The notes under the pieces were generated by a model. The model saw only the letters and a list, made by a program, of their open reading frames with translations. It was not told the DNA's origin and searched no databases. This document shows, one piece after another, positions 57,988-60,661 of a stretch of DNA of 64,000 bases. Position 1 is the stretch's first letter; each line of letters starts with the position of its first letter. This DNA is from Synechococcus sp. PCC 7336 (GTDB lineage: Bacteria > Cyanobacteriota > Cyanobacteriia > Thermostichales > PCC-7336). The position numbers and the translations under genes are program-made. The stretch covers positions 3,289,737-3,353,736 of the forward strand of contig NZ_CM001776.1 in NCBI RefSeq assembly GCF_000332275.1. Direction: 5' to 3'.

Positions 57988-58088
57988 CATCAATCGGGGT
58001 CTGTTTTGCGCCATTCAGATTCAGCAAGTCCTTCGAGCTTCGCAAATGGAGCCCAACCTATACTGGTGGCAGCAGTCTCTTTCCTGTC

Positions 58089-58670
58089 ATGACTAGCCTC
58101 ACCCTCGCCCCCGCGATCGCCCTGTCGGATCGGCAGTTCGAGCAACTGTGCCGTCAAAATCCAGACATGAATGTCGAGATGAGTGCTAGGGGAGTGCTGA
58201 CGATGACCCCACCGGTCGGCTTCGAAGGGGGCAATCGCGAAAGCCAATTGAATGCACAGGTCGCCCTCTGGGCAATGGAAGAGGGCAGCGGACTCACCTT
58301 CAGCTCGCAAACCCTGTTCCACCTGCCCAATGGGGCGAAATATATGCCCGATGTTGCTTGGGTGAGGCGCGATCGCCTCCAGTCCCTCACCCCCGAACAA
58401 AAACGCGGCTTTGCCCCCATCGCCCCCGATTTCGCGATCGAATTGCGTTCCCCCTCCGATCTGCTGTCGGATCTGCAAGACAAAATGCTGGATTACATTG
58501 ACGGAGGCGTCCGTCTGGCCTGGTTAATCGACCCCCTGCGACGGGTGGTGGAGATCTATTCGTTAGATGGCGATCGCCAGGTTTTAGACAACCCTACCAG
58601 CGTCAGCGGCGACCCCATCCTCCCGGGCTTTAGCTTGCAACTGGAACCCCTGTTTGCAGAGCTTCGATAG
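58089..58670 (+). CDS. Uma2-family protein, twin A
   Basis: A 193-residue Uma2/DUF820 endonuclease-fold protein. 'LSDRQFEQLCRQNPDMNVEMSARG' replaces the usual N-terminal helix, then 'YMPDVAWVRRDRL' (active-site Asp), 'FAPIAPDFAIELRSPSD' (E.RSPSD motif) and 'KMLDYIDGGVRLAWLIDPLRRVVEIY' complete the core. The residues before ATG 58089 are not family-like. The gene and its upstream 50 bases are duplicated as twin B 651 bases later. Confidence 0.88.
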   Translation: MTSLTLAPAIALSDRQFEQLCRQNPDMNVEMSARGVLTMTPPVGFEGGNRESQLNAQVALWAMEEGSGLTFSSQTLFHLPNGAKYMPDVAWVRRDRLQSLTPEQKRGFAPIAPDFAIELRSPSDLLSDLQDKMLDYIDGGVRLAWLIDPLRRVVEIYSLDGDRQVLDNPTSVSGDPILPGFSLQLEPLFAELR

Positions 58671-58739
58671 CAGAGATGCCCTCGTTTAGTGGGCAATAAG
58701 GAGCCAGCCTATACTGGTGGAAACAGTCCTTTTCCTGTC

Positions 58740-59318
58740 ATGACTAGCCTTACACTCGCTCCCGCCATTACCCTGTCGGATCGGCAATTCGAGCAACTGT
58801 GCCGTCAAAATCCAGACATGAACGTCGAGATGAGTGTTAGGGGAGTGCTGACGATGACCCCACCGGTCGGCTTCGAAGGGGGCAATCGCGAATTCAATCT
58901 CGCGAGTCAATTCGGTCGCTGGGTAGAGCGAGACAATACTGGCGTCGCCTTCAGCTCGCAAACCCTGTTCCACCTGCCCAATGGGGCGAAATATATGCCC
59001 GATGTTGCTTGGGTGAGACGCGATCGCCTCCAGTCCCTCACCCCCGAACAAAAACGCGGCTTTGCCCCCATCGCCCCCGATTTCGCGATCGAATTGCGTT
59101 CCCCCTCCGATCCGCTGTCGGATCTGCAAGACAAAATGCTGGATTACATTGACGGAGGCGTCCGTCTGGCCTGGTTAATCGACCCCCTGCGACGGGTGGT
59201 GGAGATCTATTCGTTAGATGGCGATCGCCAGGTTTTAGACAACCCTACCAGCGTCAGCGGCGACCCCATCCTCCCGGGCTTTAGCTTGCAACTGGAACCT
59301 CTGTTTGCAGAGTTATAG
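58740..59318 (+). CDS. Uma2-family protein, twin B
   Basis: A 192-residue near-copy of twin A. Outside residues about 52-72 the two proteins are almost identical, and from 58952 on the nucleotide sequence is nearly identical to twin A. Within that patch (REFNLASQFGRWVERDNTGV here, RESQLNAQVALWAMEEGSGL in twin A) they differ in almost every codon but keep the same length. The active-site residues are intact. The gene stands directly before the third, shortened Uma2 gene. Confidence 0.88.
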   Translation: MTSLTLAPAITLSDRQFEQLCRQNPDMNVEMSVRGVLTMTPPVGFEGGNREFNLASQFGRWVERDNTGVAFSSQTLFHLPNGAKYMPDVAWVRRDRLQSLTPEQKRGFAPIAPDFAIELRSPSDPLSDLQDKMLDYIDGGVRLAWLIDPLRRVVEIYSLDGDRQVLDNPTSVSGDPILPGFSLQLEPLFAEL

Positions 59319-59421: not shown

Positions 59422-59739
59422 ATGGCAATCGCCACAAAACCCATGACCTTTGAGGAATATCTCAACTTCGACATGCCGCCGCCAGCACTGGTTGTTGAAG
59501 TGGTCAGTCCTCAACAGGAGAGCCGCGATTATCGCCACAAGCGCACCGAATATGCCGGACGACATATTTTGGAGTATTGGATTGTTGACCCGATCGCCCA
59601 AAAGATCACCCTATTGCAATGGGTAGATGGGCTTTACGAAGAACAGATCTATCGGGGAACGCAAACGATTGTCTCTCCATTATTCCCCGACTTGAGTTTG
59701 ACTGCTGCACAGGTTTTAGCAGGGTGCCGAGAACGGTGA
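59422..59739 (+). pseudogene. Shortened Uma2-family remnant
   Basis: A 105-residue frame. MAIATKPMTFEEYLNFDM (the family N-terminus) is joined in frame to 'PPPALVVEVVSPQQESRDYRHKRTEYAG' and 'EYWIVDPIAQKITLLQW'. The usual 85-95 residues between, containing the substrate strands and the first catalytic Asp, are missing. It is from a different Uma2 subgroup than the twins next to it. It could still be translated, but enzymatic function is unlikely. Confidence 0.72.
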
Positions 59740-59911: not shown

Positions 59912-60661
59912 ATGCAGCAATCAGAATTAAAAATTGCGCTGCTAATTGATGCAGATAATGCACCTGCATCAAAGATTGATGCAATCCTGGCTGAGATTGC
60001 AAAGTATGGAGTTGCCAATATTCGCAGGGCTTACGGAAACTGGAAAAGCCCTACCTTGAAGGGATGGGAGAACTGTTTGCACGAATACGCGATTTATCCA
60101 GTACAGCAGTTTGATTACACAAAAGGGAAAAATGCAACGGATGCAGCCTTAATTATTGATGCGATGGATTTACTGTATACGCAGAAGCTGGATGCATTTG
60201 CGATTGTATCGAGTGACTGCGACTTTACACCATTGGTAATGCGAATTTTGAGCAATGGCTTAAAAGTGTATGGATTTGGAGAGAAGAAAACACCTTTACC
60301 TTTTGTCTATGCCTGTTCAATATTTCTGTACTTAGAGACAATCGATCGAACTATTGACTCTGAAACCTCAAAAGTTACTGCCAGTGACAAGAAAACTGGC
60401 AAGGAATTGAAGCAAGACTCAAAACTGATGAGTCTATTGAGAGGTGCAGTTTCTAGCACTCAAGATGACGATGGCTGGTCGAGCCTATCTGAAGTTGGTG
60501 CCCATATTGCAAATCAGGCATCGTTCGATTCACGTAATTACGGCTATGCCAAGCTGAGTGGATTATTTGAAGTGATTGACTCATTTGAGGTTAACCGAAA
60601 AAATAAGGCAGTCTATGTACGAAGCAAGCACAAGAACAAAAGTAATCAAAAGACAGCGTAG
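59912..60661 (+). CDS. NYN-domain/LOTUS-domain putative RNase
   Basis: A 249-residue protein. The N-terminal NYN (PIN-like) ribonuclease domain has acidic residues in 'IALLIDADNAPASKID' and 'NATDAALIIDAMDLLY' and in 'FAIVSSDCDFTPLV', which together form a metal-binding site. Then come a basic linker (about 150-170) and a C-terminal OST-HTH/LOTUS-like RNA-binding module ('SLSEVGAHIANQASFDSRNYG', 'KLSGLFEVIDSF'). It is AT-richer and lacks HIP1 sites compared with neighbours, so recent acquisition is plausible. The NYN-LOTUS pairing is known in bacteria and in eukaryotic MARF1-like proteins. Confidence 0.85.
   Translation: MQQSELKIALLIDADNAPASKIDAILAEIAKYGVANIRRAYGNWKSPTLKGWENCLHEYAIYPVQQFDYTKGKNATDAALIIDAMDLLYTQKLDAFAIVSSDCDFTPLVMRILSNGLKVYGFGEKKTPLPFVYACSIFLYLETIDRTIDSETSKVTASDKKTGKELKQDSKLMSLLRGAVSSTQDDDGWSSLSEVGAHIANQASFDSRNYGYAKLSGLFEVIDSFEVNRKNKAVYVRSKHKNKSNQKTA

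Follow-up and report, generated by a model that had tools for sequence, protein, structure and literature searches.

Tandem Uma2 twins in Synechococcus sp. PCC 7336 and other cyanobacteria: one helix spared from homogenisation, with a possible role in self-recognition

The window of this study, a stretch of 64,000 nucleotides from the genome of Synechococcus sp. PCC 7336 (NZ_CM001776.1, positions 3,289,737 to 3,353,736), contains two adjacent genes of the Uma2 family whose sequences are nearly the same except for one internal block. The locus raises the question of how such a block came about and why it is kept. Proteins of this family (Uma2, DUF820, COG4636) are putative PD-(D/E)XK nucleases that are expanded and tandemly duplicated in cyanobacteria (Feder and Bujnicki, 2005; PMC551604). 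Similar to the Uma2 proteins described in that work, the window twins, termed twin A and twin B, have the family signature, the fold of 1WDJ and the PD-EXX-K active site. Two explanations had been offered for the block in the initial annotation of this locus, which were gene conversion from a third Uma2 copy and selection for variation at a recognition surface.

The window twins are arranged head to tail in one reading frame and were aligned base by base without gaps at an offset of 651 bases (Table 1). Their homology begins at about 58053/58704, 36 bases 5' of the ATGs at 58089 and 58740, and ends at 58661/59312. The segment at 58053-58186 contains 14 differences, which are mostly silent and are densest in the first 80 bases. 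The initial annotation's picture of near-identical twins with a single bounded internal block was confirmed by this alignment, as was the match in the promoter-proximal sequence and in the 3' half, and gradual divergence over the whole gene was not seen. The block that had been placed at 58250-58306 is real, but its edges had been set about 8-10 bases too far to the right, as positions 58297-58306 are identical between the twins and positions 58242-58249 are part of the block. In twin A, the patch encoded by this block comprises residues 52-70 of the 193-residue protein.

Table 1. Positions of the Uma2 twins and of their shared and divergent parts in the window.
Feature	Position	Strand	Evidence
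Uma2 twin A, 193 aa	58089-58670	+	PF05685 E 2.9e-35; AF2 pLDDT 90.6; 1wdj TM 0.89; D88, E118, K132 present
Uma2 twin B, 192 aa	58740-59318	+	PF05685 E 1.4e-37; D88, E118, K132 present
Divergent patch of twin A, residues 52-70 (SQLNAQVALWAMEEGSGLT)	58242-58296	+	31 of 55 bases unlike twin B; unmatched elsewhere in the genome
Divergent patch of twin B (FNLASQFGRWVERDNTGVA)	58893-58947	+	Base alignment with twin A; DNA search of the genome
Patch-bearing helix of twin A, residues 45-65	58221-58283	+	AF2 model, DSSP H45-65, block pLDDT about 95
Patch-bearing helix of twin B	58872-58934	+	Homology to twin A; DSSP H262-282 in the read-through model
Homogenised 3' flank of twin A	58297-58661	+	3 differences in 365 bases from twin B
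Homogenised 3' flank of twin B	58948-59312	+	Base alignment with twin A
Homogenised stretch immediately 5' of the patch, twin A	58187-58241	+	0 differences in 55 bases
Promoter-proximal sequence in common with 58704-58739	58053-58088	+	Ungapped alignment

Both window twins scored far above the curated cut-off of 27 bits for PF05685 (121.7 and 129.3 bits). The AlphaFold2 model of twin A, with a pTM of 0.87, matched the 1WDJ fold (Foldseek E 6.6e-21, TM 0.89/0.92), and the solved relatives list two or more chains. Directly downstream of the twins, a third Uma2 stretch of 105 residues was found at 59422-59739 on the forward strand. It matches only profile positions 90-171 and lacks the helix and the PD region, apparently through an internal deletion. 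It is followed at 59912-60661, also on the forward strand, by a gene encoding an NYN nuclease domain fused to an OST-HTH/LOTUS domain.

The genome of Synechococcus sp. PCC 7336 (5.07 Mb, one contig) yielded 24 Uma2 hits, and two more tandem pairs among them, at 4997481-4998656 and 3170301-3171515, showed their greatest divergence at the same place. Tandem neighbours from other cyanobacterial genomes were picked by coordinates alone and not by patch. All but one of the 27 adjacent Uma2 pairs were non-identical. The 20-codon divergence peak was centred in residues 47-71 in 22 of these 26 pairs (11 families, 13 cyanobacterial genera), which are not all independent because several come from one genus, and in the four pairs that peaked elsewhere the patch was strongly diverged too. 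At residues unchanged between twins, silent differences amounted to 143/350 (41%) in the patch vs. 456/3024 (15%) in the flanks, so that the patch escaped homogenisation and its history reaches back further than that of the remaining gene.

Several loci deserve separate mention. The only tandem pair that was identical throughout, including the patch, is L059 (G045:C315), which lies on a contig of 3860 bases and may reflect a recent duplication or an assembly effect. In genome G132, two genes on different contigs (L186 and L188) were 92% identical in their flanks and 50% in the patch, so that the pattern may extend beyond tandem neighbours. Genes of two species of one genus (L039 of G032 and L164 of G059) were 92% identical in the flanks and 55% in the patch, possibly through differential loss of one twin. 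In the triplet L072 (G041), the first and third genes have the same patch type and the middle gene has a different one. Finally, the twins of L060, L062, L068 and L070 share a reading frame, as do those of the window, and in each case one stop codon separates the two open frames.

The direction of the process was examined in 18 genes that each have a patch of either type A (QNLSLSAQLWQWN) or type B (RNADLLGQLWQWN) and that were drawn from 12 genomes of three families. In the tree of flank DNA, the genes clustered largely by genome, eight changes of patch type were needed, and a single type A clade was rejected (p-AU 5e-56). Flank distances and the tree also showed that paralogs within a genome were closer in their flanks than orthologs between genomes. 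The tree of patch DNA, in comparison, needed one type change with a support of 100/100, and the sister status of twins was rejected on patch DNA for 5/5 twin pairs. Given this grouping by type in the patch and by genome in the flanks, it is strongly supported that the twins are old, that their flanks have been repeatedly homogenised within genomes, presumably by gene conversion, and that the helix patch has been spared and conserved. Judging from these sequences, the difference between types A and B is either older than the three families or came to be shared through transfer between them.

The patches of this set were also compared between species. Patches of the same type diverged about as much as the flanks, and the type A patch was less diverged than the flanks in 10/10 comparisons among five tandem pairs. 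For instance, the protein sequences of the type A patch were identical in G001 and G005, whose flanks were 16% different. A fast-evolving patch was thus rejected, as patches of the same type are about as conserved as the flanks or more so.

Some loci of this set adjoin genes that match a known defence system. In PADLOC searches, the A/B Uma2 loci L209 (G102), L208 (G004), L210 (G023) and L211 (G067) were found beside or between families matching HmaB and HmaC, which are the DNA-adenine methylase and the AAA+ ATPase, respectively, of the Hma anti-phage system, and a further, distant Uma2 (PDC-S17) sometimes occurs at an A/B locus. The Uma2 locus adjoining a 1,263-residue HmaB-matching gene contained type A in G003, type B in G004 and G147, and both types in G102, G023 and G067.

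In the AlphaFold2 model, the patch lies on one continuous helix, residues 45-65, and extends into the next turn and the start of the following strand. The positions that most commonly differ between twins are 56, 55, 52, 65, 60, 59 and 53. Among them, 52, 55, 56 and 59 form one stripe whose residues are nearly always small or hydrophobic, with K, R or H at 1% or less; N51, L54, L58, W61 and N62 form the conserved face of the helix. Because the closest pairs are otherwise near-identical, residues that compensate for the patch differences would have to lie within the patch or on a second molecule.

Couplings between positions were strong within the patch. When 110 non-redundant genes were analysed, 56-59 ranked first, 53-63 third and 52-70 fourth of 11,026 position pairs; a second, independent set (100 genes, 56 of them non-redundant) placed the same pairs fifth, eighth and first, respectively. 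The pairs 56-59 and 52-55 are also ordinary neighbours on one helix and hence do not discriminate. Charges at 49/53/57 were opposite to those at 63/66/69, with opposite to like charges counted at 49:0 for 57-63, 57:1 for 53-63, 27:1 for 53-69, 21:0 for 49-69 and 20:2 for 57-69, and positions 53 and 57 were like-charged at 36:1. On a straight helix, 6 to 20 residues separate the members of these charge pairs, which is too distant or on the wrong face for contact within one chain, and the sums of their positions are mostly 116-122. Such spacing and sums are the pattern expected when two copies lie antiparallel against each other, centred on residue ~59. On the flank tree, the sign at position 63 switches 25 times; the well supported branches contain only 3-5 independent charge pairs, all in the expected direction, so that shared ancestry may partly account for these self-complementary couplings in antiparallel register. 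Being uncharged in its variable stripe and self-complementary, the patch surface points to self-pairing and not to facing a substrate or reading DNA.

The compatibility of twin patches with themselves and with each other was scored with couplings learned from other sequences, and patches more than 60% identical to the pair were excluded. On long-range couplings alone, which were chosen after the couplings had been seen in the same data, self was favoured over cross in 18 of 21 informative twin pairs (p 4e-4); on short-range couplings, self was favoured in 20/25 pairs. The window pair itself was neutral on the long-range score (0.02) and favoured self on the short-range score (2.74). When the window twins, separated by one TAG, were folded as a single read-through chain with 9 sequences, the two halves were placed with some confidence (pTM 0.72), which is in keeping with a defined arrangement.

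Model and sequences together suggest that the patch is probably a self-recognition zipper of the homodimer, which would keep co-expressed twins from mixing. Tandem Uma2 twins undergo concerted evolution, in which the flanks are homogenised, presumably by gene conversion, and one contiguous segment of ~22 residues is spared. This segment, residues 49-70, includes most of the long helix, the turn and the start of the strand, and through it each Uma2 protein would recognise its own kind in a symmetric homodimer. The two chains would lie antiparallel, centred on residue ~59, so that 49/53/57 of one meet 69/66/63 of the other and the uncharged stripe 52/55/56/59 occupies the middle of the interface. 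As the segment would supply both sides of this contact, a twin in which it differs would pair with its own copies and only poorly with the neighbouring twin. Conversion events that replace the segment would be lost to selection, which may act against mixed dimers between co-expressed twins or in favour of two separate dimers with different jobs.

It is also conceivable, but unlikely, that the helix recognises an outside partner, such as an inhibitor, a phage protein or DNA, and that the twins cover two targets. Uma2 proteins match the PADLOC phage-defence candidate models PDC-S03 and PDC-S17, and one A/B locus has genes resembling hmaB and hmaC of the Hma defence system on its two sides, as would suit such a role. 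However, the stripe 52/55/56/59 is almost devoid of K and R, unlike a DNA-reading helix; the patch types are stable between genera and are not racing; and the segment couples with itself in antiparallel register, which an outside target does not require. The earlier proposal of selection at a recognition surface is retained in so far as the patch is self-complementary; a rapidly diversifying patch is not supported, as the patch is old, conserved and type-specific in the A/B set.

The patch could instead be a passive remnant, in which heterology halts conversion tracts at its edges and the difference has no function. Sharp edges and homogenised flanks are expected in that case, and the silent sites of the patch have diverged too. 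Yet this explanation is quite improbable: the patch types are conserved between genera about as well as the flanks or better, as in G001 and G005, unrelated pairs spare this very structural element, and many of the strongest couplings of the whole protein fall inside the patch.

An obligate heterodimer of A and B would fit the recurrence of both types as neighbours in three families. It was nevertheless rejected as very improbable, since A and B do not always occur together: only type A was found in G003, G062 and G087 and only type B in G002, G004 and G006, some of these single-type genomes having it at the same genomic place. Residue compatibilities, moreover, favour self over cross.

That a third, diverged Uma2 donated the patch to one of the twins by conversion was one of the explanations put forward in the initial annotation, and a bounded, frame-preserving block is indeed the expected trace of a short conversion tract. 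A DNA search of the genome, however, returned no donor for either window patch and only the twins as significant matches; a protein search found no donor among the 24 Uma2 hits of the genome. A contig scan found only distant relatives, at most 52% identical. The proposed search of relatives for another carrier of either patch gave the same result, as the closest patches in about 220 sampled genes had protein identities of 41% (twin A) and 64% (twin B). None of 23,871 gene pairs combined a near-identical patch (>85%) with a distant backbone (flank <70%), and the reverse pattern, a distant patch on a near-identical backbone, was found in 38 gene pairs, some of which are repeat listings of one pair. 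As the same block also recurs in other genera and the patches of the A/B set are older than the identity of their flanks, import from a third copy is highly improbable. Gene conversion thus appears to be involved as had been suggested, but on the flanks, sparing the patch, and not by pasting into it.

Least credible of all is a toxin-antitoxin-like pair of one active and one inhibitory copy: paralogous COG4636-COG4636 gene pairs are recurrent cassettes in a toxin-antitoxin survey of 2009 (PMC2701414), but single genes exist and D88, E118 and K132 are retained by both members in 24/26 tandem pairs, so that a dead partner does not seem to be the rule and an active/dead pair is disfavoured.

In the earlier family study (PMC551604), dimers and gene conversion are unmentioned (word search), and its consulted passages describe no spared helix. 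Likewise, the consulted passages of the toxin-antitoxin survey do not state how the paralogs differ (PMC2701414); here they differ in one helix, with both active sites intact. A close comparison is with the Rpn nucleases, which are also PD-(D/E)XK proteins in multicopy sets; which partners they pair with is influenced by a variable dimerisation helix (PMC10327210). In Rpn, four-residue repeats vary in a C-terminal domain that is also made as a separate inhibitor (PMC10327210), whereas in Uma2 a core helix has diverged as a block between full-length twins. A literature search, with most subscription journals outside its scope, returned no prior report of conversion-spared helices or of dimer specificity in Uma2. 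Tandem genes that are homogenised by conversion and kept different at specificity residues are well known, for example the red and green opsins of primates. The evolutionary logic of the Uma2 twins is the same; different from the opsins, however, the spared unit would be a self-complementary protein interface, and its types persist across bacterial families.

For the family as a whole, we lean towards the view that Uma2 proteins have a compact, swappable self-recognition code in one helix and that their tandem arrays in cyanobacteria encode mutually insulated homodimers, kept apart for a very long time by selection against conversion. As Uma2 is highly expanded in cyanobacteria, this finding gives a testable handle on the residues that would decide partners, and on the reason why a genome has so many Uma2 copies, some of them as twins. 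It also provides a clean natural case of gene conversion against selection within one small gene. Moreover, the patch types outlast the divergence of bacterial families and offer a natural data set for rules of dimer specificity.
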